Program-made: the position numbers and the translations under genes
Notes under the pieces: generated by a model
Seen by the model: only the letters and a program-made list of their open reading frames with translations
Told to the model about the DNA's origin: nothing
The model's database searches: none
In this document: piece by piece, positions 17,971 to 38,046 of the stretch
Layout of the letters: the number at the start of each line of letters is the position of its first letter
How positions within the stretch are numbered: the stretch's first letter is position 1
Virus record (IMG/VR): IMGVR_UViG_3300006846_000034
Span: 1-40,957 of that record
Direction: 5' to 3' (one strand)
DNA: 40,957 bases
From: a virus

Positions 17971-18723
17971 ATGCGCGGTAACACTCTCGGCGAACTTCTC
18001 TCCGAACTGAAGGCGGAGTGTGGTTACAGTCAGAACGCGGCCCACGGGATCAACAACCGCGACACGCTGATTCAGGTGTTAAAGCGCACGCAGCGCAGGC
18101 TCTGGTCCGATTGGGACTGGATGCACTTGCGCGTGTCGCGCGACTTCTCGCTCAACGCCGGGCAGCGCTTCTATTCGGTGCCAGATGATTTGCCGTTTGA
18201 GCGCGTCGACGCGGCGGAAGTGAAATTTGGTGGCCAGTGGTTGCCGCTCATCATGGGGATTGACGAGCGCCAGTACTCTATCTACGACCCGGAGGACAAC
18301 GAGCGCTCATGGCCGGTCACTCGCTGGGACATCACAGAGGACCCGGCCGATACTGCCGGCACGCCGGACGATCGCGGCATGATTGAAGTATGGCCTCTGC
18401 CATCCACTTCAGCGGACCTCACTGGATCGAAGGAAGGCTTCGTTCGCCTAACAGGTATTCGGTTCCTGACTGAGATCGTTGCTGATGCTGATCGGTTCGA
18501 TCTGGACGGCGATCTGATCGTGTTGTTTGCTGCCGCGGAAATTCTATCGCGCGAGAAGAAAGACGACGCGCAGCACAAACTACAGCTCGCGACCAACCTG
18601 TATCTGAAGTTGCGCGGCAACTCGGAGAAGAATCGCACGTTCAGCCTGGGCGGCGAGGAAACCGAAAAGAACAAGCAGCCGGAAGTATTCGCGAAGCCCG
18701 TGCCGTTCTCTGTGGGGTTCTAG
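17971..18723 (+). CDS. Head-tail adaptor protein
   Basis: 250 residues. N-terminal NTLGELLSELKAECGYSQNA and IQVLKRTQRRLWSDWDWMHL, then FSLNAGQRFYSVPDDLPFER, matches the plan of podovirus adaptor/tail-tubular-A-type proteins that bind under the portal ring. The C-terminal helix (LIVLFAAAEILSREKKDDAQ) and basic linker support this. The start overlaps nothing and lies one base after the previous stop. Confidence rests on pattern and order. Confidence 0.65.
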   Translation: MRGNTLGELLSELKAECGYSQNAAHGINNRDTLIQVLKRTQRRLWSDWDWMHLRVSRDFSLNAGQRFYSVPDDLPFERVDAAEVKFGGQWLPLIMGIDERQYSIYDPEDNERSWPVTRWDITEDPADTAGTPDDRGMIEVWPLPSTSADLTGSKEGFVRLTGIRFLTEIVADADRFDLDGDLIVLFAAAEILSREKKDDAQHKLQLATNLYLKLRGNSEKNRTFSLGGEETEKNKQPEVFAKPVPFSVGF

Positions 18724-20703
18724 GTGCCCTACACGCAAGTCAAATCCTTCGAGCGCGGGGTCGATACCCGCAAGCTCATCGATACGACGGAGGCCGGAGC
18801 GTTGTTAGACGCGCGCGACTGTCACATCACGTTGGGCGGCGAGCTGGAGAAGCGCGCCGCGTTTGTGGTGACGGACACGCTGCCGTCGAGCACGGTGGGG
18901 TTGTGGGTCACGGAGGGGCGCGTCTATCACACCTGGGGCGACGCGGCGACGCCGCCGACCGGGCTGCCCGCCGGCACGGTCTATCACTCCATCCCCGAAC
19001 CGATTCACGGCACTGCGCTGGTACGCATTTTGTCAGTGGAAGAATTCAGCGGCTCGCTGTACGTGATTGCGCAGTACGCGGACGGCGACATCGTGCATTG
19101 GTGGAAAGACGTGGCGGTGACGATTCCTCCACCCACGCCGGTTGAGATTCCTGGCGGCGGCGGAGACGCCGAAGTTCCAGACACGAGCACGCCCGTTAAC
19201 AAACCACAGGTCACGCTCAACTTGATGCCGGCTATCTACCTGAGTGGCGTGACGCCCACGAACATCGAAATTTATCACCTGCATCTCGTCGCGCCGAGTA
19301 CTACCTACAACTTCACCGGCGGCTCCACACCCATTGACGCATACGCGTTCATGACAATCACCGGCACGAGGATGGGGCGCCCGGCAGGTAGCATCATCGT
19401 GCCGTACAACCCTGGCCCCACCGGCGGCGAAGCGGCGGCGGCTGCGCTCATGGACGAATGCAACTTCGTTTCAAACGCCCTCACCGCACAACCGAAATTG
19501 TTTGCACAGGCGGGGACGGGCGGCAACATTCTCTTCTGGGTCGATGTGGCATCGCCCTTGTACAACGGCTGGCGCGTTGAAGTTCGCGGCGGAGCGCTGC
19601 GCGAGGCCTCCGGCACACTTTCCGGCGGTATCGATCCAGGCGGCGGCACACTTTTTAGAAGCACGCCCGTTCCTATGGCGTTTCCTGAAACTCCCGGCAG
19701 CCCGATGGAACTCGGGACGTACGCCGTCGCACATAACTACCGCATGTTTTCCGTGCATGGAACGAAGCTGCGCTTCTCGGAAACGGCTGACCCATCGATA
19801 TGGGCCGACCCTGCCATCGGTCCGCTTGAAATCGATCACACGATGATTACGAACCGCGCGCCGAAACTCGTATCGATGGCGGACTACGGCGGCGAGCTTG
19901 CGGTGTTTGGCGAGCGGCACATCTTCGTCTGGCACATCGAAGTAGACAACCCGGAAGGCGACGCCAAGCGCCAGACGATCCACGGCACCGGCACTTTCGC
20001 GCCGCATAGCGTGACGCCGTGGGGACAGACCGATGTCATGTACCTGGATGTCAGCGGCATCCGCAGTTTGCGTGCGCGCGATTCATCCGAACAGGCCTTC
20101 GCCGCCGACATCGGCAACCTGATCGATACACTCGTGAAGCAGAAACTGGAGACGCTGACCGACGTTGAAAAGAAGCACAGCATCTGGGCGATTGTCGAGC
20201 CGCGCTCCGGGCGGCTATGGATGGCGCTCAAGGATGAGTTCTTCGTGCTGTCGTTCTATCCGACGAGCCGCATTTCAGCGTGGACGCGATACGACGCGAC
20301 GAGCGCGCCAGTCACCATGATGAACAGCTCGGATAACAGCGTTTACTGGCGCTCTGGCAACAACATCGTTGTCTACGGCGGCGAGGATGGCGACACGTAC
20401 GACGACACCGAAGCGCTCGCCCGCGTTCCGTACATCGACGCCAGCAAGCCGGCGACCTCGAAGAACTGGACCGGCATCGATGCGGCTATCTACGGCACGT
20501 GGATCGTGCGCGGATCGTTTGACCCGACGTTACCCACAGCACTCGATTTGCTGGCCACGATCACCAAGAGCACGTACCAGCAGCAGAAGATCGCGATCAA
20601 TGGCGAGTCCCCTGCCCTATCTCTTGAACTGAGAACCACTTTCGTCGGCCCCGCGAGAATTGGTAATGCAAGCCTGCACTACACCGAATCAACAGCAGAT
20701 TGA
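18724..20703 (+). CDS. Tail nozzle / stabilisation protein
   Basis: 659 residues, GTG start immediately after the adaptor stop. Beta-rich throughout with propeller-like segments: VKSFERGVDTRKLIDTTEAG at the N-terminus; LVSMADYGGELAVFGERHIF then GTGTFAPHSVTPWGQTDVMY in the second half; a Gly/Pro linker near 135-155. This is the composition of podovirus tail nozzle (tubular B / phage stabilisation) proteins that close the short tail. Function is inferred from architecture and its place after the adaptor. Confidence 0.7.
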   Translation: MPYTQVKSFERGVDTRKLIDTTEAGALLDARDCHITLGGELEKRAAFVVTDTLPSSTVGLWVTEGRVYHTWGDAATPPTGLPAGTVYHSIPEPIHGTALVRILSVEEFSGSLYVIAQYADGDIVHWWKDVAVTIPPPTPVEIPGGGGDAEVPDTSTPVNKPQVTLNLMPAIYLSGVTPTNIEIYHLHLVAPSTTYNFTGGSTPIDAYAFMTITGTRMGRPAGSIIVPYNPGPTGGEAAAAALMDECNFVSNALTAQPKLFAQAGTGGNILFWVDVASPLYNGWRVEVRGGALREASGTLSGGIDPGGGTLFRSTPVPMAFPETPGSPMELGTYAVAHNYRMFSVHGTKLRFSETADPSIWADPAIGPLEIDHTMITNRAPKLVSMADYGGELAVFGERHIFVWHIEVDNPEGDAKRQTIHGTGTFAPHSVTPWGQTDVMYLDVSGIRSLRARDSSEQAFAADIGNLIDTLVKQKLETLTDVEKKHSIWAIVEPRSGRLWMALKDEFFVLSFYPTSRISAWTRYDATSAPVTMMNSSDNSVYWRSGNNIVVYGGEDGDTYDDTEALARVPYIDASKPATSKNWTGIDAAIYGTWIVRGSFDPTLPTALDLLATITKSTYQQQKIAINGESPALSLELRTTFVGPARIGNASLHYTESTAD

Positions 20704-21139
20704 TCGCGTCGCTCCGGCGCGCTTCTATGTACCGAATCACAGGGCAGTGTGGGCGGATATTCTGCCTGGGCTCGAGCAGCTGGCCTCGATGTATTCAGAC
20801 AAAGACTGGTCGATCGACGGCGTGCGACACATGCTCGACAAGGACCGCGCCGCGTTGCTGGTGGACAGGGAAGATGCCTCCGCATTCGCGATCGTGCGGT
20901 TCGATGACTACCCGTACATCGAAGGTGACATCGAACTATTCGTTTATCTCGTGTGGCACAAAGGTGGCGATGCCATCGCGCGCTTTCAGCCACATCTGGA
21001 AATCTATGCGCAACTCGGTGGCGCGAAGTACATGCGATTTTACACGCGAAGACGCGGGTTTATACGCGTCGCACAACGCGCGGGCTATCTGCCCCACAAC
21101 ATCGAATACGTGAAGGAGATCCCCCATGTTTGGCGGTGA
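20666..21139 (+). CDS. GNAT-fold-like protein, internal virion protein A-type position
   Basis: 157 residues from ATG 20666, overlapping the nozzle gene by 38 bases. Segments resembling an acetyltransferase-like fold (LLVDREDASAFAIVRFDDYPYIEG; RFYTRRRGFIRVAQRAGY) are visible, but a clear acetyl-CoA P-loop is not. In T7-like phages a protein in this slot is an internal virion/assembly protein. Catalytic activity should not be assumed. Confidence 0.55.
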   Translation: MQACTTPNQQQIDRVAPARFYVPNHRAVWADILPGLEQLASMYSDKDWSIDGVRHMLDKDRAALLVDREDASAFAIVRFDDYPYIEGDIELFVYLVWHKGGDAIARFQPHLEIYAQLGGAKYMRFYTRRRGFIRVAQRAGYLPHNIEYVKEIPHVWR

Positions 21140-21752
21140 CGGTGGAGCGGGCAAAGAAGCCCGGCGAGCTAGGCAAGAAGAGCAGCAGCGACAACTCAAC
21201 ATCAGCACGGGCACGGCGGATACCCGCAATAAATTCGCGCATACCTTCGACAAGAAGTACTACGACGATCTGGTGCAGAACGTAAAGAACTACTACCAGC
21301 CGGACGTTGATAAGCAGTTCGCGGACGCCGCCAAGGCGATGGAAGCCGGGCTCATGCGAGCGGGACTTTTTAATTCGTATGTCGCTTCAAAGAAGGAGAA
21401 GGAGAAGGAGACAGCGAGACTACGAGGCAACACCGCCGTCAATCAGATGGCGCTCGGGGCGAAGAACCAGCGCGTTTCGGATGTCGAATTCGCGCAGAAC
21501 CAGGTGCTCAACCAGCTCAACGCCACCGGCGACTCGTCGGCCGCATTCGCCAATGCAGCGTCCGCGATCAAGGCCAACTACGACGCACCGGCGATGCCGA
21601 TGCTCGGGCAGGTCATCACCGATCTATCGGCGGGGCTCGCGACGCAGGCTGATCTTGAACGCAACAACCAGAACCGTCGCACCTTGTTTGGTCGCATCCC
21701 AGGCTGGAGTACTGGCGGTGGCAGCCGTTACACGCGAACGGTCGGAGGCTAG
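21126..21752 (+). CDS. Internal virion protein (ejection protein), small
   Basis: 208 residues, Ala/Asn/Gln-rich and helical (GKEARRARQEEQQRQLNIST; DAAKAMEAGLMRAGLFNSYV), no signal peptide, with a Gly/Arg tail. AAGGAGA precedes the ATG. It opens a block of coiled, Ala-rich proteins ending in the giant protein, a layout typical of short-tailed phage ejection proteins. Confidence 0.6.
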   Translation: MFGGDGGAGKEARRARQEEQQRQLNISTGTADTRNKFAHTFDKKYYDDLVQNVKNYYQPDVDKQFADAAKAMEAGLMRAGLFNSYVASKKEKEKETARLRGNTAVNQMALGAKNQRVSDVEFAQNQVLNQLNATGDSSAAFANAASAIKANYDAPAMPMLGQVITDLSAGLATQADLERNNQNRRTLFGRIPGWSTGGGSRYTRTVGG

Positions 21753-21754
21753 TC

Positions 21755-22675
21755 ATGACACCGCTTGAATGGATCGCACTCGCGCTGATGGCTGCCGGCA
21801 CGGCGTCAAACGCGCAGGCACAGCATAAGACGCGCAAAGCACAGGCCCACGTCATGGGTGAGGAGCGCGAGCGCCGCAAGGCGCAGCAGGCGAAAGCCGA
21901 GGCCTCTGCGCGGGACACCGCGACGAAAATGACGGGGATTAAAGATCGCGAGGCGCAGCGTGCAGCGGAGCTGACGGAAGTCTATCGACAGGAAGCGCCC
22001 ACGGCGACCACGACCGACGCCGGCACTCGCGTGCTTGCAACCGATGCGCCCAGGCAGGCCACTTCAACGGTCCAGGGAAACGAGCGCGCGCGCGCGAGTG
22101 CTCTGGCGGAAGAAAACCAGCGTACCGGAGCGCTCTCAAAACTCGGGGCCTTTGGCGATGTTTTTCAAGAATCCAATATCGGTGCCGCACGCAACTTGCA
22201 AGACATCGGTATGCAACAGGGCTTCACCGAGGGGTGGCAGCGCAACGTACTTCCGGCGCTGTATCAGAAGGCCGCCGGCGCGGGTCGCGATTGGGCCACG
22301 GCAGCCGACATCATGAAGCTCGCCTCTGCGGTTGTTTCAATGGGAGCAATGGCGGCACCTAACGCCGCCGGCAACGCCGCTGGTGAGGTTACCGCCGAAG
22401 GGATGCAGGCCGCGAAGGTCGGATCGGGGTTCGATTGGAGTCAGCCGATGCTGTCGGGCGGCGCAGAGATCGGCTCGACCGCTGGCCGTTTCGGCAGCGC
22501 CTACGGCGTGGCAGACGCTGCGAGCGGGGCCGCCACTGCGAACGCAGGCCTCACACAAGCCGGCGCGGCAGCGGGCGGCTATGACCCCTATTGGTATATG
22601 ACGCCAGACCAGCGGGCATTCTGGCCGCAATGGCTCAACAAGGTTCCAGGCGGTATGCGAAGACGAGGTTATTAG
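21755..22675 (+). CDS. Internal virion protein
   Basis: 306 residues. A hydrophobic N-terminus (TPLEWIALALMAAGTASNAQ) is followed by a highly charged coiled coil (about 30-75), then Gly/Ala-rich regions, including a second hydrophobic helix near 190-205 (IMKLASAVVSMGAMAA). Such membrane-active, Ala-rich helical proteins are ejected with DNA in podoviruses. Two bases separate it from the previous stop. Confidence 0.6.
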   Translation: MTPLEWIALALMAAGTASNAQAQHKTRKAQAHVMGEERERRKAQQAKAEASARDTATKMTGIKDREAQRAAELTEVYRQEAPTATTTDAGTRVLATDAPRQATSTVQGNERARASALAEENQRTGALSKLGAFGDVFQESNIGAARNLQDIGMQQGFTEGWQRNVLPALYQKAAGAGRDWATAADIMKLASAVVSMGAMAAPNAAGNAAGEVTAEGMQAAKVGSGFDWSQPMLSGGAEIGSTAGRFGSAYGVADAASGAATANAGLTQAGAAAGGYDPYWYMTPDQRAFWPQWLNKVPGGMRRRGY

Positions 22676-22683
22676 GAGTCAGC

Positions 22684-23832
22684 ATGGCCACCGTACCAAA
22701 CTACTACTACAACTCGCCGTGGATCGCGGACGCCGCGCGCAATCTCGCCTCCGCGTTCGCGCCGCCGGATCGCGACAAGCTGATGGCGCGCGAACAGAAC
22801 AAGTGGGAATTCGAGTACGCGAAAACGAAGGCCGCGAACGAGGAAGCAGATCGCACCAGGGAGACCGAGGCGTCCGGGTATCTCGGCGAGCTTGCGCTGC
22901 TCTACAAAGATCCCGTGCTTAACGCAGAAGGAAAGCCGGACCTTGAGGCAACCCGTGCGAAGGCCGCCGGCCTGATGGACAAAATCGTCACGGTCGGCGG
23001 CCCGAAGTTTGTCAACGAAGCCGAGTCCGTTGCTGGCCCTCTGAGCGCGGCATTCGTGGCGAAACAGGAGTTTAAGTCGCAGTCCGACGCCGCCGCGATG
23101 CGAAGGCTCGGGGTTACCCAGAGTTTCCAGGCTGGCGAGGGTGAAAAAAACCGCGACTTTCAGACCGAAAGAGACGAGCTGGCGCACAAACATCGTCTTG
23201 AATACTTGGACATCCAAGGCCAACAGCACATCGCCGAAATCAACTTGCGCAACCAGTCTCAGCAGCAGGCCAACGCGATCACGCTCACGCCAGCGATGGG
23301 CAACGCCATCATGGTCGGCATCTATCAGCGTATGCGCTCGACCGGCAAGAAGATGGGCGATGCCGAAATCTACAAGATGTTCGATGAGATCGCGCACGAC
23401 ACTTCAGTAAATACCCACAACTACGCGACAAGCTTGTCGCGCGTCTGGGACGCGCGGTTTCCCGGAGGCGTCTACCAGAAACCGAGTAGCGGATTCTTCG
23501 GTTGGGGCGAGACCGAATATCTCACGCCCAACTTTGAAAACCCCCTGCCTGAGTTCGGTGCAGCCACCGACAATCCAGCGCAGGCGCCGCGCGAACTGGC
23601 TGACCCAATCGTCAATGCTGGCCCGCCACCAGCAGCCGCGCCAACCGCTGACGCGCCGCGCGCGGCCACCCCGCCCCCGAAACCAACATCCGCAAAGCCC
23701 GTTGCAAAAAAGCGCTGGACAGATGGACGCATGTTGCCGGCGCCTACGAACAAAGCGGAGCGCGACTCGTTGCCATCCGGGACCGATTACATAGCGCCGA
23801 CTAACCCGCCAACGATCAAGACAAAGAAATGA
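22684..23832 (+). CDS. Internal virion protein
   Basis: 382 residues from ATG 22684 (TAGGAG eight bases upstream). The first 280 residues are helical and charged (KLMAREQNKWEFEYAKTKAA; RDFQTERDELAHKHRLEYLD); the rest is a Pro/Ala linker and basic tail. The stop overlaps the giant gene's start (ATGA), so production of the two is probably coupled. Function inferred from position. Confidence 0.6.
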   Translation: MATVPNYYYNSPWIADAARNLASAFAPPDRDKLMAREQNKWEFEYAKTKAANEEADRTRETEASGYLGELALLYKDPVLNAEGKPDLEATRAKAAGLMDKIVTVGGPKFVNEAESVAGPLSAAFVAKQEFKSQSDAAAMRRLGVTQSFQAGEGEKNRDFQTERDELAHKHRLEYLDIQGQQHIAEINLRNQSQQQANAITLTPAMGNAIMVGIYQRMRSTGKKMGDAEIYKMFDEIAHDTSVNTHNYATSLSRVWDARFPGGVYQKPSSGFFGWGETEYLTPNFENPLPEFGAATDNPAQAPRELADPIVNAGPPPAAAPTADAPRAATPPPKPTSAKPVAKKRWTDGRMLPAPTNKAERDSLPSGTDYIAPTNPPTIKTKK

Positions 23833-26800
23833 GTTCAAATCCTGAATGGTGGGAAGAGGACGAGCCGGCGGCGAAACCGAAAGCGGCGAATGAGTCGTGG
23901 TGGGACGAGGATGCGCCAGCGGCTCGCCCCGGCGCGCGCGAGCCCGGCAACATCAACCTGGACAACCGCAAGCGTTACGAACACCCGGAGGGCGGCTTCA
24001 GCACGGTGCGCTCGATGTCGTTCCAGGACCGCGACGGCCGCGAAGTTCTGGTCCCAACAATCAGCGACTCCGGGCGACTGATGTCCGATCAAGAAGCCAA
24101 GGACGAGTACTACCGCAGCGGCAAGCATCTCGGAAAATTCGCCACGATCGCGGACGCCAACGCGTACGCGCAGCAGCTGCACAAGGAACAGGAGCGCCAG
24201 TACGCGCTGCCGCGCCCGCCCGACGCGCATCCGTTGGCGAGCGCGCTCAACTTGGAACAGCCGTTCCTGAGACCGGGCCAGGGCATGACCGCGCCACCCG
24301 AAGAGCCGATGTTCGAGGAGTCGGACCTTGCGTCTATCTTTGGTCCATTGCCGGAGAAGCCGCGCGTCTCCATGCCGATGACGCCAGAGCGCGAGGCGGA
24401 CATCGAAAGCAAGATGGCGGCGCTCGGTGGACCGCTAACAAAGCCGGCTGATTTTCACAGTGGGAGTTTCAGAGACCAGCGGCTAGGCCCACGGCTGTCG
24501 GAACGAAACCAGCGCAATCCGCTGCAAGAAATCGAAGTCGCCGCCGCCAGACCACAAGCGCCGATCGACACTCGCCCTTATGCGACGTTCGGCGACACGT
24601 TGGCAGCAATCCCGCCGACCGTCGTGGGCCGCTACGGATTAAAAGCGGTCGGCGCGCAGGAAATGGTTGCCAGCCAGGACGCACGCAAAAAGTTCTGGCA
24701 GGCGATGGTGTTGCCGGACGCGATTCGCCGCATCGACGAATTCAATCGCACCGTCGCGGACCCGCGCGACCGCATCAACTACGACGAGGACCCGTATGTT
24801 GCCGAAATGGCGAAGCGCGCAGGCGTGCGGCCCGATGTCTTCACGCGCGACTGGCCGTCGATCGCCAACATGGAGCCGCAGGAACTGGAGAACTTCAAGG
24901 AAGAGAACCGCGCGCTGATCGCAGAGCAGGACGCGCGACTCGAAGGACTCGCGAAGGAGCGACAGGACATCGCGGCCGAACTCCAGCGCACCCGCCCGCA
25001 CTTCGAGAGCGAGTGGGGTCCAGATGCGTTCTTCTTCGATTCCGCGAATTCCGTTCTCGCGGACATGGTTCCCGCTCTCGTGGCTGGCATAGCGCTGGGG
25101 CCAGAAGCAGGCGCTTTGACGATGGGCGGCCTTGTCTTGCCCGAGGAATTCGCCAACCTCAAGAACGAGGGACATGACGATGCGACAGCCCTCTTCGGTT
25201 CGATGGCAAGGACGTTTGCCGAAGTAGCGCCGGAAATGGGCGTGTTGGAAGTGGCTTTGAAGACGGCCACCGGCAAAGAGGCGATGCGCAAGATGATCGG
25301 CAAGTGGGCCGAAGGAAAGCGCGGGCATGTAATCAGCACGGCGACAGCCGAGGCGATCTCCGAAGAAATCACGGAAGACATCAACGTCGCTGTCGACAAG
25401 GGCTGGTTAAACCCTGACATGACGGTGGCCGAAGCGCTTGAGCGGATGGCGCGCGCGCCAGTGCTCGGCGGCATCATGGGCGGTGGCGTCGGCGTTCTGA
25501 CGAGCCCACTGCCAGAACCACACATCGATGAGTCCGCTTTCCAGTACGGCACACCGGACCCATTGCCTGAGTCGAGGCCGCCAACGCCGCCCGGTGGCGG
25601 CGCGCCAGATGGCTTCAACGCATCCACGGTCGCGAACTTCGCCGACATTCTTGCCGGCCAGGGCGGCGGCGGATTCGCTGCGCCCAACTTGCCGCAGCAG
25701 TCCGACATTCCGATGCAGCTGCCGATCAACACCCAAGCCGGCCCGACGATCGACCTGTCTGAGCTGGCTGGCATCTCAGTCCCAGCGATGCGATTTGGCG
25801 CAGGCCCGCCGCCGGACGCTGGTACAATGCCGCCGCCCGCAACCACGGGTAGTCCGGCCTCTGGGATCGGCGGTGCGGTGGGTCCTACAGCCCCGTCCAC
25901 TGCTTCCCAGAGGACGGCGACTCCTCCGCGCGCTGGCGCGTTCGTCATTCAGGCCCAGGTTGAGGACGAGACCAGCACAGGCGGTCCCGCTACCGTCGAA
26001 GCAACACCCGGAATTCATGGCGGCTGGACGCTGATCCAGCCGAACGGGAAATCGATCGCGGTTCCGCCAGAAGATAGGCGCCCGCTCGAAGAGATCGTTG
26101 CCGAGTACACGAGCAAGAGCAAAAATCCGGCTGGCGTCAGCATTCCAGAGGAAAGCCGCTCCCTATCTACCGCATTTCAACAGTCAGCCCCACCCGCCCC
26201 TTCTGCGTCAACTGAACCCGCGCCGACATCTGCGCCCCAAGCAGGTCAACCGGTTTCACCGACGCAGAAACCCCCGGCGGGTGGGGCTGCCTCTCAGCCG
26301 CGAACGCTCGGCGAGGCAGTCACACCGAAGGGCAAGCGCAAGCCAGCGGCACCGCCGCCGGCACAGGGCAAACTATTCGGCAGTGAGGGCGAAGTCGTCA
26401 ATGCGCCGCCGGCCGCGCCAGCGCCGGAAATGCCGATCGCGCCGCCGGCCGAAGCAAGCGCGCGCCCGTTCGACACAGAGCGCGCGGCGCTCAACGAATT
26501 CATCAAGGCGCCGAAGAAATTCGGCCAAGTGAAGAACGAAGAGACGCACGACGCCCGCGCCGTCAAGAGCGCGCGCGACTTGCTGCCGAAGCTCGATGAG
26601 CTGGAGTCGCTGATGGCCCAGGTGCCGGCGGAAAAACTCTCGCCGGAAATCCTCACGAGCTTGCGTGAAGACATTGCCGAAATCGGCACGGCCACGAACG
26701 TCTTGCAACGCGAGGATGCGGTCGGCTTTGCGCACGTGTCAGTTGCGCGATTGATTCATGAGGCGAAGGAAATCGCCGCCGGCCGCGTGCCGGAGCCAAC

Positions 26801-29800
26801 GTCGCGACAGAAACAGTTAGCCGAGGAAGCGGCCAAGGCCGCGCGCAAGGGCAAGCCGGCGAAGAAGGCCCCAGCCGCCCAGGCTGCGCCAGCTCCGGCA
26901 GCGCCCGCTGCGGCGCCAAAATTCAAAAACGCACGAGACGAGGCGGAGCATTGGCTTGAGGAGTACTACAAAGTCATTGCTGATGCAGAGGCGAAGCGCG
27001 ATGCGGAAACCGATCCCAAGAAGAAGGCCGAACTACAGGCGCACATTGATCGCCACAGAGAGAAACTGAAAAAGTTTGAAGCCGAATACAAAAAGCTGAC
27101 CGGCGAAGCGTATGTGCGAAGTGGCGCAGCTGCCGCGCCACCGACTGAAACCGGTGAGACCGATCCGGTCAAGAAGTTAATGGCCGGCGTTCTCGCGAAC
27201 GCACAGAAGCCAGAGACCACTGCCGACGACGGAACCCCGCTCGGCAAACTGAAGGCGTCCATTGCCGGAAACCTCGCGGACTCCGGTAAAGAAATCACGC
27301 AAGAAATGGTCGATAAGCTCCACGAAGCCACCGTGACCATTAATCACTACATGACTGAGTTCACTGCGCTGATGAAATCGAAAGGCGCGGAAGGGCTCGT
27401 TGAGATGGGCATCACTCCAGAGGATGTACAAAAAGTCCTCGATGCCGCAACGGAATCGCAGAACGCGATCGACTATCACGATCAGGTTGCAAAAGCCCAA
27501 AAAGCGCTCAAGGCATTCGAGGAGTTCGCGAAGAAGGCAAAACTGAAACCACCATCGCTGACAGCGAAAAAGCCGCCGCCAGCGCCTGTCCAAGCACCGA
27601 CGCCGCCGGAATGGCGAAAGGGGTTCGATGAGTTTTGGAAGTTCTGGTGGGGCCATACGCTCTACAAGTACCCGCGAAGCATCCACCACAAAATCGTGGA
27701 CGCGGGCACCGCGATAAATGCCGCAAAAAGCAAAGTCGATGGTGCCAAGGAAGAAGACAAGGCGACCGCAAACGCCGAGTTGATGGCGGAGGTGCAGAAG
27801 GGCCTCGACGCGATCGCCGAGGCTGAGAGGGTGGGAATGATCCCCCCGGTTGCGCCGGAGACGGAGGCGGCAGAGAAAGAGTTTTGGGAAAAGTTCAAGG
27901 TGATGAAGCAGGAGGATTACCCAAAAACCTTTTGGAACATCCTCTCGGCCTCGACACGGATTAATGCGACGCGCCAGAAGCGCGATGCCGCAGACACACC
28001 GGCAGAAGCAGTGAGCTTCGAGGGCGAGTGGCTTGCGGCACTGAAAGACGGCATCGCCCTGATCGATGCGAAAGACCATCCCCTGCCCGCCCAGGCTGCG
28101 CCGACTACGCCGCCCGCGAAACCTGCGGAGAAACCGGCGCCCGCCGCACCAGCCTCAGCTAAACCGTTGCAGCGCGGAGAGGTGTACCCGCAGCCCGAGG
28201 GGCCGGTGCGCCAGAACGCGGAGGGCGAAACGGAGGCGGCAGACAGCGGCAAGACCCTCCCGCTCGAAACAACGCAAGACAAATTCAGCGAAGTCATCAA
28301 CGAATTCCCGGCGCTCTTCGCCGCGCCGAAAAAGCGCACGCGCGCCACCGATCACCCCAGTTACGGCACCTATCTATCCAGAGAGGAGGCCGCGCGCCGC
28401 ATCGAGAGTTGGCAGGAGCACGCCGAGAAACAGGGCAAGATCAAGCGTCCGAAGGGCAACAGCGAACGGGTAATCCTGTCGCTCTTCGACCTCACGGGTA
28501 ACTGGGCGAGGCCGTTCGCCGACGCTGGCTACGACGTGCGCGTGTTCGACATCCAGAACGGCGCGGACATCAAGGATTTTTCCGTCGAATGGTTTGCCGA
28601 CAACATGCCGGACATTCACACCGTAGACGGCATCCTGATTGCTTGTCCGTGTACGGACTTCGCCAGCTCCGGCGCGCGCTGGTTCGCCGACAAGGATGCG
28701 GACGGACGCACGGAGGCCAGCAAGGAACTCGTGTTCCAGGCGCTGCGCACAGTGGAATTCTGGCGCCCGCGATTCTGGGTGCTGGAGAATCCCGTGGGCC
28801 GCATCGAGTCGCTGACCGGATTGCCGCCCGCGCGCTACTCGTTCAACCCGAACGATTTCGGCGACCCGTACACGAAGAAAACATTGCTGTGGGGCAAGTT
28901 CAACACTGATCTTCCCGTCGCTCCCGTGGAGCCCAGTGAAGGCTCCAAGATGCACGCGAAGTACGGCGGCGGCAGCCTGAGAACGAAGAACGCGCGCAGC
29001 GCGACGCCGGAAGGTTTCGCCGCCTCCTTCTTCATGGCTAATAACTACCTCGACGCGACGCCGGCCGAACGCCTGCTATCGCAGTTCCCGGAAGCGGCCG
29101 GCGCCGTCGAACAGGCGCTCGCCGCCGGGTTCACGGAAGAACAGATTCGCGAAGTTGTCACCGACCCGTATGAGAACTACGAATATGCGGAGGCGCGTGA
29201 CGCGCTGCGCCAGCTCGTCAAGAGTGCGACGAAGACCAAGGCGGCAAAACCGGCAAAACCAGCGGCCGAGGGACGGGCAGACCAACAGACGCTCGAACCG
29301 GACATCGACGCCAACGCGCCTATTCCTACGCTGGCAGAACAGGCCGATGCACTCGATCGCGCGGCGGACGAGGCTGAAGAGGAAGGCAACACGGACGAGG
29401 CTGAATCGCTGCGGCGGTACGCGGAGGAAGTACGCAAGGGCAATGTGCCACGTGAAGAGACGCCGGAGCCCGTCGATACCAGCAAAGCCGAGGAGCGCGA
29501 CGAAGTACGCCGCCCGCAACGTCGCAAGAGCAAGCGACAACCTGGGCCGTTCAGCATGACGCGCGAAGGCGAAATCCGCGCCGCGCCGGACACCATCTGG
29601 ACTGACAACAACATCAACGCGGATCTGATGGAGCTGGCGACGCCGAAGCGGCGTTTCGATAAGGCCGTCGAACTTCTGAAGGCGCGGTTCGGTTTCCGCG
29701 ATATTCAGATGGACAAAAACCTACCCATCGGCGAGGCCATCGACGCGCTGAAAGATGCGTGGATTGGTCTAACAAACCTCGCCGCCGTGCAGAACGTCAA

Positions 29801-32800
29801 CCCGGAATTCATGAGTTTGAATGGCCGGCTGGCCATGCAGCTGCATCGCGAGTACGACGGCGCCCTCGCCTACTACATGCCAAGCACGAAAACGATCGGC
29901 ATGACTCGCCGCAACGATGCGTTCGCGCACGAGTGGGCGCACGCGCTCGATCACTATCTGGTCGAGACCCATGCGCAAGATATCCTTGCCATCAAAGGCC
30001 GGCACCTGACCGGCAAGACTCGCCAGGGCGGCACGACACAAACGCTCGATGAACAGGTGCGCGACGCGTTTGCCATGTTGCTCAACTCGATGTTCTTCAA
30101 TGCTGACGCAGCGGCGACCTACGTCGCAGACCTTGAAGCCAAAATCAAAGCCGCGAAGACGCCGAAACAAAAGGCCGTGCTCCAGAAAAAGCTCGACACG
30201 TTCATAGCCGGACAATCGAAGAAGCAGGACATCGCGTCCGACTACTACGAGCGCGCGAAGGCGAAGGATGGCCCCACGCCCGAAGACAGCGATAAAGGCT
30301 ACTGGCAGCGGCCAACGGAAATGTTCGCGCGCGTGTACGAGTCATACATCGCCCACAAGATCGCGGGCCTGCCGGCCGATCACCCGTTCGTCACGCAGTC
30401 GGCGCGCATGTACGACGAGAACCGCATCGGCTGGATGAGCGTGCCGTATCCGCAGGCGATGGATCGCGGCAACATCTTCGCGGCGCTCGATACGTTGATG
30501 CGCGCGATGCGGGATCGCAGCCTTGCACCGACCGGCAGCGCGCCGAACACCATCGAGCCGACCGACACTCGCTACTGGCGCAAGCTCGCGCCAAATCTGC
30601 CACCGCAGGTCATGCAGCAGGCGCGCAGCGTCATCGAGCGTTTGAAGGCACCGTTTCAGCGCCAACTCGCCGAGACGCATCGTGCCGATCGCGATGCCCG
30701 CGCGCGCGCGGAGCAGGAGAAAGGCATCCGCGACGCGAAGCTCAACGCGAAGGGCTACGGCCCCACCCGCCGCTGGTTCGCGAATCTGGGCATGATTGCT
30801 GCGGGGAAAATCAAAGCAATGCCCGCGATGATCGCGTTCACGGTTCGCGGCGTACTGCTTTCGCTCCAGGCCAAACATAAGGGCAACACCGGACTTGCGA
30901 CGCTGGTGCGGATGTTCGCCACTGACCCAGGCGCCAACGTCGGCATACAGGGGAAGGTCTACAACGACGAAGTCAAACACTGGGAAAAGGACTACCAGAA
31001 TCGATTCGCGAAGATTATCGAGAAACATGGCGTACGTGGCTTCACAGACGGGGAGCTGCGGCAGATGCGCGATGTGTTGGTGAATGCGATCCCTGAGAAC
31101 TCAGTGTCAGAGAAGATCAGGGCGCCGGCGGCCGACATGCGCCGCTTCCTCAACGACATGTACAACTATAACGTCAGCAACGGTGTCAACATCGGTTACG
31201 CGAAGAACGGCTATCTACCGCGCATGATTGACTCCCTGGTTGTCGAGGGCGATCTGGCGGGATTCCGCGCGCAGGCACAGAAGCTGTACAAGCTCGTCTA
31301 CCCTCGCGAAGTCGGCACGCTCGATCACGTGCTCGAAGACCCGTTGGAACACCCGGAGCGGCTGGAAAATCTCACGCAATACGTGCGGGAGATCGCGCGC
31401 ACTGGTCGAGTATTGCAAGCCAAGGCGGCGGCCAAGGCATTGTTAGACGACGCCAAGGCGCTCAACAAGAAGCTGGCGGAGCTCAAGGAGGCTGCTGAGG
31501 CCGGCGAGGACACAGACCAGCTCGAGGACGAGGTGCGCGCGCTGGGCAAAATCATCTATGACGGGCTGCGCGATCCGTGGGCGATGGAAGCCGCGAACGA
31601 TTGGGAAATGCGTATTCGCGGCCTGGGTGACAAGCCTGCGTTTGCGTTCGACCAACTCGATCCGAATAGCGACTACACCAAGGCGCGCATCCTGCCGGCA
31701 GAAACCGATCAGATCATGGGCGACTACCTGAAGAACGATCCGCTGGAACTCATCACCACATACATCTCGCATTCCGTGCATCGCGTGGAGTTTGGCAAGT
31801 TCTTCGGCAACCCCGCGTCGGCCAACGCGAGGGCAGGAACGCCGGAAAGGAAACTCGGCTGGAAGCTCGATGCGGCGATGCAGAAGGCAAACGAACCGTA
31901 CACCGCAGTAGATGGTTCTGAAAAACGCATGAGCACCGACGACTTCCAAGAGTTGCAGAAATCCATCGAACTACTCACCGGCCGCTACAGCACCAACATG
32001 ACGCAGAAGGGCATTCGCTGGCGCGGGCGCATTGCCGCGGTGCTGACGCCATTCATTTTTGCGCGCGCGCTCTGGTCGCAGATATCGGAGCCGATCGTCG
32101 TCGCGCGCGCAACTCGCGACATGACAGACATCCTCCGTGTGTTCTATGCGCAGATGCAGGACTTGGTTTCACACCTGCCCATCAAGAGCGCGAAGCAAAA
32201 ATCCGCATGGCGGCGCGAAATGTCCGAGTACTTCGGCGTCGTGGCCGACCATCTGGCCGACCAGCTCATGCTTCAGCGTTACAACCTCTTGGAGATGAAC
32301 TCCTCGGATCGCGTGAAGGCGCAGCGCTTCTTTCATATCAGCGGCATCCACCCGCACGCGATGAGTATGCGGCGCGCTACGTCGCAGATTTTCATGCAGC
32401 GTTACGCGCCGAAGATCGCCAACCGCGCCCTGGGCACGGGGCCAAGGGCCGTGCTTGCCCGTCAGGCGCTCGCCGAACTCGGCCTCGATTCGGCAAACCT
32501 CGAACTACTGCGCGAACTGCAATCGCTGGGCGACATCACGACCGTGCAGCAACTGGACAAGTTGCGGCACCTGGATGAAATCCGCACGGCGATTAACCGC
32601 TTCACGGATGGCGCAATCATGGACCCGAGAGCCATCGACAAGCCGCGCATGGCCTCGCAGCCAGAGTATTCGTACATGTACGGCATCCTGTCATTCCAGT
32701 TTGCCTATCAGCGTCACATTCTCATTGCGACCGGCAAACGCATCTCCAACGCGTGGAAGGAAGACAAGGCCATCGGTGTCGCAACAGCCGCTTCCGCTGC

Positions 32801-33434
32801 CGCCAATTTTGCGCTGCTGATGGGCTCCCAGATGGCCGCGTACATGGTGCGCGCATGGCTCTACGGCGGCGACGATTGGGAGGAGCAGAAAGAAAAGCTC
32901 GCAGAAAGGCAGTTTGGACTGCCCAACTGGTTTTGGCAGTCAATGTCACGCAGCGGCATGTTCGGCTCGGCTGATCCGCTGGTGAACGCGATGTTTGGAC
33001 TCAAGTACGAGCGTGATCTGACCCAGCTCATGGCCGGCCCCACGATCGCCTTGCCGCTGAAGCTCATTCAGGACGCCGCGCGCGCCGGCCTCAACGACAC
33101 CCCCATGAATGCGAACTCGGAATACAAACTGACTGAGCTGACGTGGCGAGCGGCGTGGATTTGGGGCACCTCGAAGGCGCTTTCGATAGCCGGCGCCAAC
33201 CCACTCCTCGATGCCGCCATTGGCTATGGCTTGCCCTTTCTGACAGGTGGGCGAGTCACTAAATGGGTTAGCGAGACCGGCGCGGAGCTGATGAGCGGGC
33301 AGGACTACGTGTCGCCAGAAACGAAGGCCAAGGCGGCGGCCGGCAACATAGACGCGATGGCTGAGGCGGAGTCGGCGAAGGCGACCAATGCCGCAACCAC
33401 AGACCCATTACTGAACGAAGAGATACCGGAGTAG
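23829..33434 (+). CDS. Giant polyvalent internal virion protein with methyltransferase-like and zincin-like domains
   Basis: 3,201 residues, about a quarter of the window. Order: two acidic-Trp motifs (WWEEDEPAAKP, WWDEDAPAARP; residues 5-33); a phage-protein N-terminal domain (GNINLDNRKRYEHP..., 39-126); a hydrophobic stretch (about 415-440); long Pro/Ala linkers (about 570-920); coiled coil (about 1039-1096); two W/YP repeats (1261-, 1348-). A C5-cytosine-methyltransferase-like domain follows (about 1545-1720: FDLTGNW, PC at 1607-1608, ENP at 1653-1655, YTKKTLLWGKF). Next is a metalloprotease-like region with HEWAH (2034-2038) and candidate third ligand E2164. The C-terminal part is helical with a hydrophobic segment (2982-3014). 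This matches the 'polyvalent protein' type described for phages: probably injected to counter host defences. Activities are inferred. Confidence 0.85.
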   Translation: MSSNPEWWEEDEPAAKPKAANESWWDEDAPAARPGAREPGNINLDNRKRYEHPEGGFSTVRSMSFQDRDGREVLVPTISDSGRLMSDQEAKDEYYRSGKHLGKFATIADANAYAQQLHKEQERQYALPRPPDAHPLASALNLEQPFLRPGQGMTAPPEEPMFEESDLASIFGPLPEKPRVSMPMTPEREADIESKMAALGGPLTKPADFHSGSFRDQRLGPRLSERNQRNPLQEIEVAAARPQAPIDTRPYATFGDTLAAIPPTVVGRYGLKAVGAQEMVASQDARKKFWQAMVLPDAIRRIDEFNRTVADPRDRINYDEDPYVAEMAKRAGVRPDVFTRDWPSIANMEPQELENFKEENRALIAEQDARLEGLAKERQDIAAELQRTRPHFESEWGPDAFFFDSANSVLADMVPALVAGIALGPEAGALTMGGLVLPEEFANLKNEGHDDATALFGSMARTFAEVAPEMGVLEVALKTATGKEAMRKMIGKWAEGKRGHVISTATAEAISEEITEDINVAVDKGWLNPDMTVAEALERMARAPVLGGIMGGGVGVLTSPLPEPHIDESAFQYGTPDPLPESRPPTPPGGGAPDGFNASTVANFADILAGQGGGGFAAPNLPQQSDIPMQLPINTQAGPTIDLSELAGISVPAMRFGAGPPPDAGTMPPPATTGSPASGIGGAVGPTAPSTASQRTATPPRAGAFVIQAQVEDETSTGGPATVEATPGIHGGWTLIQPNGKSIAVPPEDRRPLEEIVAEYTSKSKNPAGVSIPEESRSLSTAFQQSAPPAPSASTEPAPTSAPQAGQPVSPTQKPPAGGAASQPRTLGEAVTPKGKRKPAAPPPAQGKLFGSEGEVVNAPPAAPAPEMPIAPPAEASARPFDTERAALNEFIKAPKKFGQVKNEETHDARAVKSARDLLPKLDELESLMAQVPAEKLSPEILTSLREDIAEIGTATNVLQREDAVGFAHVSVARLIHEAKEIAAGRVPEPTSRQKQLAEEAAKAARKGKPAKKAPAAQAAPAPAAPAAAPKFKNARDEAEHWLEEYYKVIADAEAKRDAETDPKKKAELQAHIDRHREKLKKFEAEYKKLTGEAYVRSGAAAAPPTETGETDPVKKLMAGVLANAQKPETTADDGTPLGKLKASIAGNLADSGKEITQEMVDKLHEATVTINHYMTEFTALMKSKGAEGLVEMGITPEDVQKVLDAATESQNAIDYHDQVAKAQKALKAFEEFAKKAKLKPPSLTAKKPPPAPVQAPTPPEWRKGFDEFWKFWWGHTLYKYPRSIHHKIVDAGTAINAAKSKVDGAKEEDKATANAELMAEVQKGLDAIAEAERVGMIPPVAPETEAAEKEFWEKFKVMKQEDYPKTFWNILSASTRINATRQKRDAADTPAEAVSFEGEWLAALKDGIALIDAKDHPLPAQAAPTTPPAKPAEKPAPAAPASAKPLQRGEVYPQPEGPVRQNAEGETEAADSGKTLPLETTQDKFSEVINEFPALFAAPKKRTRATDHPSYGTYLSREEAARRIESWQEHAEKQGKIKRPKGNSERVILSLFDLTGNWARPFADAGYDVRVFDIQNGADIKDFSVEWFADNMPDIHTVDGILIACPCTDFASSGARWFADKDADGRTEASKELVFQALRTVEFWRPRFWVLENPVGRIESLTGLPPARYSFNPNDFGDPYTKKTLLWGKFNTDLPVAPVEPSEGSKMHAKYGGGSLRTKNARSATPEGFAASFFMANNYLDATPAERLLSQFPEAAGAVEQALAAGFTEEQIREVVTDPYENYEYAEARDALRQLVKSATKTKAAKPAKPAAEGRADQQTLEPDIDANAPIPTLAEQADALDRAADEAEEEGNTDEAESLRRYAEEVRKGNVPREETPEPVDTSKAEERDEVRRPQRRKSKRQPGPFSMTREGEIRAAPDTIWTDNNINADLMELATPKRRFDKAVELLKARFGFRDIQMDKNLPIGEAIDALKDAWIGLTNLAAVQNVNPEFMSLNGRLAMQLHREYDGALAYYMPSTKTIGMTRRNDAFAHEWAHALDHYLVETHAQDILAIKGRHLTGKTRQGGTTQTLDEQVRDAFAMLLNSMFFNADAAATYVADLEAKIKAAKTPKQKAVLQKKLDTFIAGQSKKQDIASDYYERAKAKDGPTPEDSDKGYWQRPTEMFARVYESYIAHKIAGLPADHPFVTQSARMYDENRIGWMSVPYPQAMDRGNIFAALDTLMRAMRDRSLAPTGSAPNTIEPTDTRYWRKLAPNLPPQVMQQARSVIERLKAPFQRQLAETHRADRDARARAEQEKGIRDAKLNAKGYGPTRRWFANLGMIAAGKIKAMPAMIAFTVRGVLLSLQAKHKGNTGLATLVRMFATDPGANVGIQGKVYNDEVKHWEKDYQNRFAKIIEKHGVRGFTDGELRQMRDVLVNAIPENSVSEKIRAPAADMRRFLNDMYNYNVSNGVNIGYAKNGYLPRMIDSLVVEGDLAGFRAQAQKLYKLVYPREVGTLDHVLEDPLEHPERLENLTQYVREIARTGRVLQAKAAAKALLDDAKALNKKLAELKEAAEAGEDTDQLEDEVRALGKIIYDGLRDPWAMEAANDWEMRIRGLGDKPAFAFDQLDPNSDYTKARILPAETDQIMGDYLKNDPLELITTYISHSVHRVEFGKFFGNPASANARAGTPERKLGWKLDAAMQKANEPYTAVDGSEKRMSTDDFQELQKSIELLTGRYSTNMTQKGIRWRGRIAAVLTPFIFARALWSQISEPIVVARATRDMTDILRVFYAQMQDLVSHLPIKSAKQKSAWRREMSEYFGVVADHLADQLMLQRYNLLEMNSSDRVKAQRFFHISGIHPHAMSMRRATSQIFMQRYAPKIANRALGTGPRAVLARQALAELGLDSANLELLRELQSLGDITTVQQLDKLRHLDEIRTAINRFTDGAIMDPRAIDKPRMASQPEYSYMYGILSFQFAYQRHILIATGKRISNAWKEDKAIGVATAASAAANFALLMGSQMAAYMVRAWLYGGDDWEEQKEKLAERQFGLPNWFWQSMSRSGMFGSADPLVNAMFGLKYERDLTQLMAGPTIALPLKLIQDAARAGLNDTPMNANSEYKLTELTWRAAWIWGTSKALSIAGANPLLDAAIGYGLPFLTGGRVTKWVSETGAELMSGQDYVSPETKAKAAAGNIDAMAEAESAKATNAATTDPLLNEEIPE

Positions 33435-33440: not shown

Positions 33441-34112
33441 ATGAGAGACATCGAACTAACATCCGAAACGGACCTCGCATACACGAGCGCTGCCCCCGGC
33501 GGGCTGCCGGTGGATACTACCGCAGTCGATCCGTCCTTCACGGATACGAAGGCGTACCTGAAACCATCACTCGGCGGCGAGTTTGGCCCGGCGCTCTCAC
33601 TCTTGTTAGGCGCTCCGGCGGACGGTGGCGAAGCACTGCTCGACGCCGCCGCCGTCGTCACGGTCACGCCGCCAGTGGTGCCGACCGCGCCGATTGTTTG
33701 GCCAGGACGCGCGGCCAACAACACGAGTGTTCTGAATCTGTACCCGTGGCGCAAGACGCCGCCGCAAGGCCTCGATCAGAACAACCCAAACCCGCCGCCG
33801 GCAATGGAAGAGCCGGAGCCATCCGGCATTACGGTCACGGGCAACGTGCTCGTCGGCAACCAGGGCAGCGCAACTTTCAGCGGCCCCGCGCAGCGCAACA
33901 CCGTCATTCGTCTCACGTACAGCATCAACGACAACCCGTTACAGACGCTGGACATCCACGTGTTGAGCGGCGACACCGGCTCGCAGATCGCAGCCAAGGC
34001 ACGCGCAGCCGTCGATGCGGTGTTCGGACTCGACGCGGGCGGCACCGGCGGCACGGTCAACGTGGTCGGGCTCGGCGGCCTTCTCACCCATTTCAACATC
34101 TCGGTTATCTGA
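33441..34112 (+). CDS. Hypothetical virion-type protein, paralogue 1
   Basis: 223 residues, beta-rich and Pro/Gly-rich. N-terminal motif DLAYTSAAPGG...VDPSF...AYLKPSLGGEFGPA and C-terminal VIRLTYSIND...GSQIAAKARAAVDAVFG. Both halves align with the next protein, so the two are duplicates. A GGAG lies upstream of the ATG. Possible decoration or internal protein; no family recognised. Confidence 0.65.
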   Translation: MRDIELTSETDLAYTSAAPGGLPVDTTAVDPSFTDTKAYLKPSLGGEFGPALSLLLGAPADGGEALLDAAAVVTVTPPVVPTAPIVWPGRAANNTSVLNLYPWRKTPPQGLDQNNPNPPPAMEEPEPSGITVTGNVLVGNQGSATFSGPAQRNTVIRLTYSINDNPLQTLDIHVLSGDTGSQIAAKARAAVDAVFGLDAGGTGGTVNVVGLGGLLTHFNISVI

Positions 34113-34122
34113 AGGAGTCCCC

Positions 34123-34695
34123 ATGATCGACCAAACTACTCCACCCTTTCGCACGGGCGACACGGCCTACACGCGCTCATCGCCGGGCGGCTACGCCTCG
34201 GCCGCTGCCGTCCCCGTCGACCCCGCGTATGGTGGCAGCGACGCCGCGTACCTCTGCCCATCACTCGGCGGCGAGTTTCAACCTGGGTCTGGCATGGCTG
34301 CGCCCACCAGCTCACCGATCACGAAGGGCGCGGATGCAGACGGCGGCGCGGCCGATATTGCGGCGATCACGCGCATCGGCGCGCCAGCGCCGCCGGCGCC
34401 GGCCGTTATTCCGCCCCTGTCTGGCACGGTTGCCTTCCCGGCCGTCGTCTTCGCTGGCGCTGCCGATGCAGCGCGCACCGTCGTTGTGAACTACAAGATC
34501 AACGGCGAGGGGAGCGCGCGCGGAGTGACGACAATAGTGCCGATTGGTTCCAGCGCAGGAGTGGCCGCCGCGTTGGTTGCAGCGGCCATGAACGCAATTC
34601 CTTTCCTGCAAGCGTCAACCACAAGCAACGCGGTGCGGGTCGGAACCAAGACGCCGAACGTGCTCAATGAAATCGTTTCGGTCGTCATCACGTAG
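34123..34695 (+). CDS. Hypothetical virion-type protein, paralogue 2
   Basis: 190 residues. DTAYTRSSPGG...VDPAYGGSDAAYLCPSLGGEFQPG corresponds to the same stretch of paralogue 1; the C-terminal half (TVVVNYKIN...AGVAAALVAAAMNAIPF) corresponds to its second half. ATG 34123 is fixed by AAGGAG. The Pro-rich insert of paralogue 1 is absent here. Confidence 0.65.
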   Translation: MIDQTTPPFRTGDTAYTRSSPGGYASAAAVPVDPAYGGSDAAYLCPSLGGEFQPGSGMAAPTSSPITKGADADGGAADIAAITRIGAPAPPAPAVIPPLSGTVAFPAVVFAGAADAARTVVVNYKINGEGSARGVTTIVPIGSSAGVAAALVAAAMNAIPFLQASTTSNAVRVGTKTPNVLNEIVSVVIT

Positions 34696-36650: not shown

Positions 36651-36968
36651 TTAAAAGGGTATCTCGTCGGTTCCGGGTTCCCCCGATTCCGCCCCATTTT
36701 GGCGCGGCTGAGGGGTGTGGTTTACGGTCCCTTTTGGCTGGCAAAACTTGCGGGCGTGCTCGTCTGTCATATCTTCAAGAGACAGCCGCATCATGTCCCC
36801 GCCGCGACGCTCCCAACATGAAACCCAAATCCAGCCGTAGCCGACTAGGTAGTACTTGCCCTTCCATTGCGGGGAGTTAGCGGACGCTGGCTTTTTATTT
36901 CTCGCGATGTACCCGCCGCTTCGGATCTCGCCCTTCCATGTGTTCGGGTTCACCTTGGAACCGCTCAT
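36651..36968 (-). CDS. Hypothetical protein with SSB-like C-terminal tip
   Basis: 105 residues. The N-terminal two thirds are beta-rich and aromatic (KYYLVGYGWIWVSCWERRG) with a helix LSLEDMTDEHARKFC; then a disordered Gln/Gly/Glu linker ends in TDEIPF, close to the DDDIPF tip with which bacterial SSB recruits partner enzymes. No clear OB fold is visible. ATGA overlap with the next leftward gene. Together with RecT and exonuclease nearby this hints at a replication/recombination accessory role; function unproven. Confidence 0.65.
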   Translation of the reverse strand: MSGSKVNPNTWKGEIRSGGYIARNKKPASANSPQWKGKYYLVGYGWIWVSCWERRGGDMMRLSLEDMTDEHARKFCQPKGTVNHTPQPRQNGAESGEPGTDEIPF

Positions 36969-37180
36969 TTCTTCCCCCGATTGCGCTCGCCGTTGATGAT
37001 GCGCAGCGCGCGGAAGTAACGGATCAGCTGCTGGCGTTTGGCCGGCGTTACGGCGATGGCGTGATTAAGACCGGCGTCATATGCGGCGGCGACTTCGGTC
37101 CAGGTTGGCACCTTCTGCGGCCGATTCCATTGCAGCGCTTTGACGTAGCACGTTGCGTATTCTGAATGTTCCATTTTCAT
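36965..37180 (-). CDS. Hypothetical small helical protein
   Basis: 71 residues starting at ATG 37180 in an ATGA overlap with the ParB-like gene stop; a longer reading to 37267 would overlap that gene. Helical (TWTEVAAAYDAGLNHAIAVT; KRQQLIRYFRALRIINGERN), basic C-terminus. Not recognised. Confidence 0.65.
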   Translation of the reverse strand: MKMEHSEYATCYVKALQWNRPQKVPTWTEVAAAYDAGLNHAIAVTPAKRQQLIRYFRALRIINGERNRGKK

Positions 37181-38046
37181 ATGATGAAAAGCCGCGCGTC
37201 CTCGGATGGGGAGACGGTGATGGTCTGATAAGTCGCGACATCCATGCCGCGCCGCCGCCAGTTCCACGCCTTGATGGTCATACGGACCTTGACGCCGACC
37301 GGGAGCTTGGAGGTGATGCGTTGCGCATCCTTCTGGAACGCCGCGCGCAACACGAATTCAACATCGGTTCGCTCCAGGCTTTCGCCGGTGAACAAGTCCT
37401 GAAAGAACTTGTCCGCCTTTTCTTCATCCTTGCGCGCGAAGTATTCGTAGAGCGCCGTGCCGACCCCGAGTGACAGCGGCCGATTATCTTTCGGGTAGGA
37501 CTGCAAGCGCTCGGCGCGCTGGAACAGCGAGGGATGGTCTTGCGCATATACAATCACTTCGGAATTGCTGATCTTGTTGCTGCCGCCGGAGCGCAGCGCA
37601 CCGCGTTCCAACTGCTTCACCCACGGCACAGCCGTTGCCACGGCCTTGACGATCCCGATCCCGTACTCGTTGAAGTGCAGATACAACGCGTCGGCGGAGC
37701 TGCGCACCGCGCCGGTGTCGATAGTGCTGAATGCTTCGGGAGTGATGCCATAGACCACCAGGGTCTTGATCGGCTGGCCGGCCTCGATGATGGCGAGTAG
37801 CCGGTGCTGACCGTCGAGCACCTGTTCATTGTCGGCGATGACAATGGCCTGACCGTTGATCTGCCAATGCCCTTCCTTGATCTCCTTGGCGAGAAAATTC
37901 ACGTGGCCCTTGCGCACCGGTCGGTTGCGCTCATTGCAGCGCAGCCACGCTGTCGCCTCGGCCGGCGTGATGGTCACGACCTCGGCGATGATGTTCTCGC
38001 AGCCGTAGATTTTGGCGGCGTGCTTCAACTGGATGATGTTGCTCAC
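37177..38046 (-). CDS. ParB-like domain protein
   Basis: 289 residues. The ParB/Srx-type signature D-G-Q-H-R-L lies at 78-83, preceded by RPVRKGHVNFLAKEIKEGHW; the remainder is helical, ending in a beta-like tail. In ParB this fold binds CTP, and phage relatives are variously annotated as nucleases or regulators. No partner ParA or parS site is visible, so partitioning should not be assumed. Start is GTG 38046 with TAGGAG six bases upstream. Confidence 0.75.
   Translation of the reverse strand: MSNIIQLKHAAKIYGCENIIAEVVTITPAEATAWLRCNERNRPVRKGHVNFLAKEIKEGHWQINGQAIVIADNEQVLDGQHRLLAIIEAGQPIKTLVVYGITPEAFSTIDTGAVRSSADALYLHFNEYGIGIVKAVATAVPWVKQLERGALRSGGSNKISNSEVIVYAQDHPSLFQRAERLQSYPKDNRPLSLGVGTALYEYFARKDEEKADKFFQDLFTGESLERTDVEFVLRAAFQKDAQRITSKLPVGVKVRMTIKAWNWRRRGMDVATYQTITVSPSEDARLFII

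Follow-up and report, generated by a model that had tools for sequence, protein, structure and literature searches.

A giant gene with two enzyme-like regions

The window considered here is the whole 40,957-base stretch of the virus record IMGVR_UViG_3300006846_000034, a phage known from environmental DNA, and its largest feature is an open reading frame (ORF; positions 23829-33434, + strand, as for all features below unless stated otherwise) encoding a giant protein of 3,201 residues of the polyvalent type. Unrelated enzymatic domains, one methyltransferase (MTase)-like and the other zincin-like, are joined in this single ORF as in polyvalent proteins. An earlier note on this DNA had predicted one protein of this size at this place, with a PC dipeptide at residues 1607-1608 and a HEWAH motif at residues 2034-2038. 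This was verified, as the ORF starts with ATG, has no internal stop and runs in one continuous frame, its start overlapping the stop of the preceding gene (22591-23832). Furthermore, a 100% identical protein is encoded by a second contig (G001). Both motifs were located as predicted, the PC occurring within ACPCTDF and the HEWAH being the only HExxH of the protein. Neither site is a chance occurrence: they are genuine conserved sites, since they are nearly or completely invariant in relatives (47 MTase-like and 16 zincin domains). Both domains are also maintained by purifying selection, with ratios of non-synonymous to synonymous substitution rates (dN/dS) of 0.14-0.29 for the MTase and 0.24-0.31 for the zincin.

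The region upstream (11545-23832) is a virion module composed of terminase, capsid, SU10-type adaptor and further structural genes, the order of which is kept in sister phages. The giant gene comes after this module in those sister contigs where the module is visible, and its homologues occupy the equivalent place. Relatives of the giant carry ddrB-ParB, GNAT-like, ART-PolyVal, InPase, LPD37, LPD38, LPD39 and SNF2-helicase domains. The polyvalent layout that had been proposed is thus supported by the position next to the virion module in sisters, by a Pfam LPD1 match and by the polyvalent domains of the relatives.

The C5-cytosine methyltransferase-like module

The MTase-like module (residues 1500-1765; 28326-29123) includes a clade-specific N-terminal helix (residues 1518-1536). 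Residues 1540-1745 matched phrog_757, a DNA methyltransferase family of PHROGs (E 1.5e-44), and a marginal match to Pfam DNA_methylase (E 4e-4) fell below the cut-off, with 20.2 bits for a gathering score of 22. The AlphaFold model of residues 1500-1765 had a mean predicted local distance difference test (pLDDT) of 89.5 and a predicted TM-score (pTM) of 0.89. When it was compared with PDB folds, the top 23 matches were all C5-cytosine DNA methyltransferases, the best having an E value of 2.1e-5 and a modest TM-score of ca. 0.42. This structure prediction supports a C5-cytosine DNA methyltransferase fold, in agreement with the domain proposed in the earlier note. Profile searches of PDB sequences with this module returned chance matches only, mostly coiled coils. 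PADLOC gave only weak type II methyltransferase matches.

The motifs are numbered here as is general for C5-methyltransferases. In an alignment of 47 MTase domains, the motif I variant FDLTGNW (residues 1553-1559; 28485-28505) has D1554 and G1557 invariant (47/47), as is D1574 on the S-adenosylmethionine (SAM) side. Motif IV, ACPCTDF (28641-28661), contains the candidate catalytic Cys1608, with P1607, C1608 and T1609 invariant (47/47). The catalytic Glu of the ENV motif VI is also present, this motif reading ENP within ENPVGRI (residues 1653-1659; 28785-28805), all three residues being invariant (47/47). These are followed by the equivalent of motif VIII, YTKKT (residues 1681-1685; 28869-28883; K1683 in 47/47 and T1685 in 46/47), and by a C-terminal, motif IX-like family motif, RSATPEGFA (residues 1723-1731; 28995-29021), in which R1723, T1726, P1727, F1730 and A1731 are invariant (47/47). 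The canonical motifs I (FxGxG) and VIII (QxRxR) are absent from the module, FDLTGNW and YTKKT occurring instead. That these two differ from classic enzymes had been pointed out and is true, but it is clade-wide and not peculiar to the giant. Since the odd motifs are common to the whole clade and partly also to more distant solo phage enzymes, they represent a family trait.

The same divergence, together with the lack of a full target-recognition domain and the Pfam score under cut-off, could indicate that the MTase fold has no or very little catalytic activity and functions as a decoy or in DNA binding, either shielding the entering DNA or anchoring the giant on DNA. We regard this as unlikely, given that the catalytic Cys, the Glu of ENP and the SAM-side residues D1554, G1557 and D1574 are invariant in all 47 domains and that the low dN/dS would be unexpected for a dead enzyme. 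A substrate other than DNA was also considered: the module could methylate RNA, for instance host tRNA, which would be protected from defence anticodon nucleases as tRNA is by Dnmt2. The scant space available for recognising a DNA target and a match to the DNMT2 profile that was weak and not significant (E 0.85) go in this direction. This nevertheless appears very improbable, since DNA enzymes make up all of the first 23 fold matches and since Pseudomonas phage 8P (see below) has this domain in one protein with DNA methylase and helicase parts.

The zincin-like region and LPD1

The second enzyme-like region (residues 1925-2300; 29601-30728) is kept in all sister giants, whether or not these carry the MTase. 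It contains the motif HEWAHALD (residues 2034-2041; 29928-29951), which would provide two zinc-binding His, a general-base Glu and an Asp at +3. It is followed by a Pfam LPD1 domain (residues 2154-2229; 30288-30515; E 9.9e-11) that is matched by all 16 zincin-domain members and that contains E2164 of TEMFAR, a candidate third zinc ligand. In the alignment of these 16 members, E2035, H2038, D2041, E2164, A2167 and R2168 are invariant and H2034 is found in 15. The NCBIfam model CLCA_X matched residues 1942-2051 with an E value of 2.7e-15, but far under its curated cut-off.

The polyvalent zincin core has been described as a helix, three strands, the HExxH helix and a Glu helix (PMC5512222). The same order was predicted here, with elements H43-63, E78-82, E90-93, E98-102, H106-129 and H238-253 (model numbering), HEWAH and E2164 both falling on predicted helices. 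As E2164 lies inside the Pfam domain, LPD1 in this giant probably includes the zinc-binding Glu helix, judging from the model and from conservation. Concerning the earlier zincin claim, the motif, the order of secondary structure elements and the family profiles lend it good support, whereas the search against PDB folds gave it no independent support (see below); profile searches of PDB sequences with the zincin likewise returned nothing useful. Membership in the common phage zincin clade of PMC5512222 was considered as well. D2041, three residues past HExxH and present in 16/16, fits that clade, but the His expected at the end of strand 2 is replaced by Tyr2015 (among the 16 relatives, His in 10 and Tyr in 6); this assignment was dropped and the region is filed as a polyvalent zincin.

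Exchange of the methyltransferase module among sister phages

The MTase profile detected one copy in each of five records (G000, G001, G022, G008 and G011) and no match anywhere in four others (G006, G014, G009 and G012), which may be incomplete. Among four comparable sisters whose major capsid protein is 86-95% identical to that of the window, two possess the module (G022 and G011) and two do not (G014 and G012). The giants differ in their other domains as well: G022 and G011 have ddrB-ParB beside the MTase, G006, which has no MTase, carries GNAT-like and ddrB-ParB domains, and G014, also without it, has an ART-PolyVal domain below the Pfam cut-off. The zincin region is constant throughout, with the MTase present or absent. 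Two relatives show reciprocal incongruence, L112 being 87% identical in the MTase and 67% in the zincin while L128 is 56% and 74% identical, respectively, as expected if modules have been exchanged. Overall, the MTase is an exchangeable module that is swapped for, or added to, other effector domains, which is new here.

This constancy bears on what the zincin may do. It could act as an effector protease on host targets instead of processing the giant itself, an option left open by PMC5512222 and one that concerns this second domain only, being compatible with any view of the MTase. A zincin that is constant while effector modules vary better fits a shared processing role. In addition, DdrB of phage P1, which contains a polyvalent zincin-type domain, is cleaved prior to packaging (PMC5512222). 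A host-directed protease is thus the less probable of the two, without being far-fetched.

Distribution in viral giants and on plasmids

A scan of viral contigs identified 52 loci with the MTase domain, 51 of which lie in ORFs of 1,404-5,586 residues, some of these ORFs being cut by contig ends and one of the two search patterns, derived from the giant-specific helix, favouring giant loci. Domain scans of twelve MTase-bearing giants detected InPase in five, LPD1 in four, LPD38 in three and ART-PolyVal in three, with LPD37, ddrB-ParB, RadC, SNF2 and others in one each; LPD39 was also found among MTase-bearing giants. The association of InPase with the MTase in five of the twelve includes L115, where InPase spans residues 1136-1264.

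In a quick tree of 100 MTase domains, all 61 giant-borne copies and 13 solo copies fell into one group (97 in the Shimodaira-Hasegawa-like approximate likelihood ratio test), apart from the small solo enzymes. The MTase of the window is thus a member of a separate family branch that occurs mostly inside such giants. Solo members of the same group, of ca. 360-450 residues, occur on plasmids of Pseudomonas, Cupriavidus and Acinetobacter, at least one of which is conjugative. These plasmid copies (L171, L172, L175, L180 and others) include ones carried by multidrug-resistance plasmids.

In other phages, smaller solo relatives of ca. 200-250 residues are surrounded by genes for replication or recombination, which is what might be expected if the MTase acted late in infection on host or progeny phage DNA, as an epigenetic or self-marking enzyme, and not on incoming DNA. 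Moreover, expression of a virion-module gene probably comes late, at a time when both SAM and replicated DNA are at hand. Such a late action is nonetheless unlikely: in the tree, the giant-borne copies are separate from the small solo enzymes of phages, a purely intracellular enzyme would gain little from being fused to a giant of the virion module, and C-containing dinucleotides are not depleted in phages with the MTase when compared to those without.

Other regions of the giant and of the window

The N-terminal part of the giant (residues 1-1499; 23829-28325) is variable: its similarity to sisters is for the most part short or weak, and it contains linkers rich in Pro and Ala as well as a hydrophobic stretch (residues 405-432). 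Immediately ahead of the MTase module, a segment of ca. 75 residues occurs in two diverged copies (27630-27863 and 27879-28112; about residues 1268-1345 and 1351-1428), with a local score of 66 compared to a maximum of 58 over 200 shuffles. The C-terminal region (residues 2301-3201; 30729-33431) is kept in most sister giants, alignments running through it with 48-61% identity to L097, L098 and L099 and ca. 25% to Microcystis phage Mae-Yong1326-1. A phmmer search of the whole giant against PDB chains returned no match. Giant genes of Stx phages came up among weak matches.

Phage Mae-Yong1326-1 also shares the virion-gene order of the window, more distantly, with a synteny that includes the major capsid protein and adaptor genes. 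Because this phage has been described with a long flexible tail (PMC9503304), no tail type was assigned to the window virus.

Elsewhere in the window, two adjoining ORFs just 3' of the giant (33441-34112 and about 34120-34695) have similar starts (TAYTRSSPGG and LAYTSAAPGG ... SLGGEF) and are perhaps tandem paralogues. By eye, a small ORF (6655-7002) resembles SLOG-type nucleotide-binding proteins, a tail-fibre-like protein (7667-10537) has a C-terminus like S74-type intramolecular chaperones, and a block on the minus strand (36965-39853) includes ParB-like, RecT-like and nuclease-like genes, PADLOC giving no match in this block.

Proposed role of the giant

Domains, conserved residues, selection, gene position and module exchange being observed, we infer from them the steps of a possible mechanism. 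The giant would be made together with the virion genes and would probably be packaged and ejected with the DNA. The zincin would then cut it, probably at the flexible Pro/Ala-rich linkers, into working pieces, and the C5-MTase-like domain would most likely use host SAM to methylate cytosines in the phage DNA as it enters, thereby defeating those restriction enzymes of the host that are sensitive to cytosine methylation. Replacement of the module by other effector domains is what would be expected if it answered host-specific defences. Anti-restriction delivered by the virion, through cytosine methylation of incoming DNA and with the zincin processing the giant, is the role that we favour with somewhat more than even confidence, because of the DarB-like joining of domains in phage 8P and of the pattern of module exchange.

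Several points weigh against this role. The arginines of QxRxR are replaced, and fewer than 40 residues separate the end of motif VIII (residue 1685) from the last motif (residue 1723), which is too short to hold a target-recognition domain of the size normal in this family. The PDB fold search with the zincin model returned nothing below E 0.001, zincins appearing at E 0.3 or worse. How Dar-type protection works in P1 is itself not clear (PMC12707154). Finally, dinucleotide bias, taken as a trace of stable 5-methylcytosine, did not differ between MTase-bearing and MTase-lacking phages; as transient methylation leaves no trace, this is neither for nor against it.

The compactness of the module could also be a specialisation. 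Tentatively, the clade might consist of C5-MTases that lack a normal target-recognition domain and have become specialised for delivery in virion giants. They would methylate incoming DNA in cis and with low sequence specificity, thereby blocking many restriction enzymes at once, and would have reached plasmids, too, in the form of a solo gene. Should the module be active in spite of having no target-recognition domain, it would be an unusual methyltransferase in its own right. In addition, phages that have almost the same capsid but have gained or lost the module offer natural matched pairs for asking which defence the MTase answers.

Comparison with known systems

The module has the fold and the PC and EN catalytic motifs of M.HhaI, M.HaeIII and DNMT3A, from which it differs by altered motifs I and VIII, the lack of a full target-recognition domain and the lack of a recognisable motif X. 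By profile it belongs to the phage DNA methyltransferases of phrog_757, with which it shares motifs P-C-T, ENPV, YxKxT and RSxTPxG; however, the five members from named phages that were examined stand alone as proteins of ca. 200-240 residues, lack the N-terminal helix and do not fall into the giant-borne group.

DarB of phage P1 is likewise a virion-borne methylase-type protein and has been linked to in cis protection of incoming DNA, but it combines an adenine-type methylase with a helicase, whereas the window giant has neither NPP[YF] nor a helicase domain. A methylase-helicase dyad of the DarB type was dropped on these grounds, NPP[YF] being absent from the identical ORF of L111. A further parallel is the giant of the isolate Pseudomonas phage 8P (8P_023; MT152150), annotated as a structural protein, whose MTase domain is 51-54% identical to that of the window; a literature search found no paper on this phage. 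This protein differs by its length of 5,145 residues and by its Eco57I-type methylase, SNF2 helicase and LPD23 parts, and no homology was detected in the C-terminal half. The MTase, the Eco57I-type adenine methylase and the SNF2 helicase thus occur in one polypeptide, a set that resembles the DarB-type anti-restriction dyad (PMC5512222).

As a class of ejected phage effectors, polyvalent proteins are known but have hardly been put to the test. The window giant resembles those of PMC5512222 in that it is a multi-domain protein encoded among virion genes and possesses LPD1 and a zincin hub domain, and its relatives carry ddrB-ParB, ART-PolyVal, InPase and LPD37-39. It differs by its C5-cytosine-type MTase, as the methylases described in the main text of PMC5512222 are mostly EcoKI/TaqI-like adenine enzymes. 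No cytosine methylase is mentioned there as a polyvalent domain, and a full-text search of the available literature found no report of a polyvalent protein with a cytosine methyltransferase. A cytosine-type MTase in a polyvalent giant is therefore new relative to the adenine methylases of that text, and a module this widespread, in giant ORFs at 51 of 52 viral loci and on plasmids, suggests a second chemistry for protecting the entering DNA.

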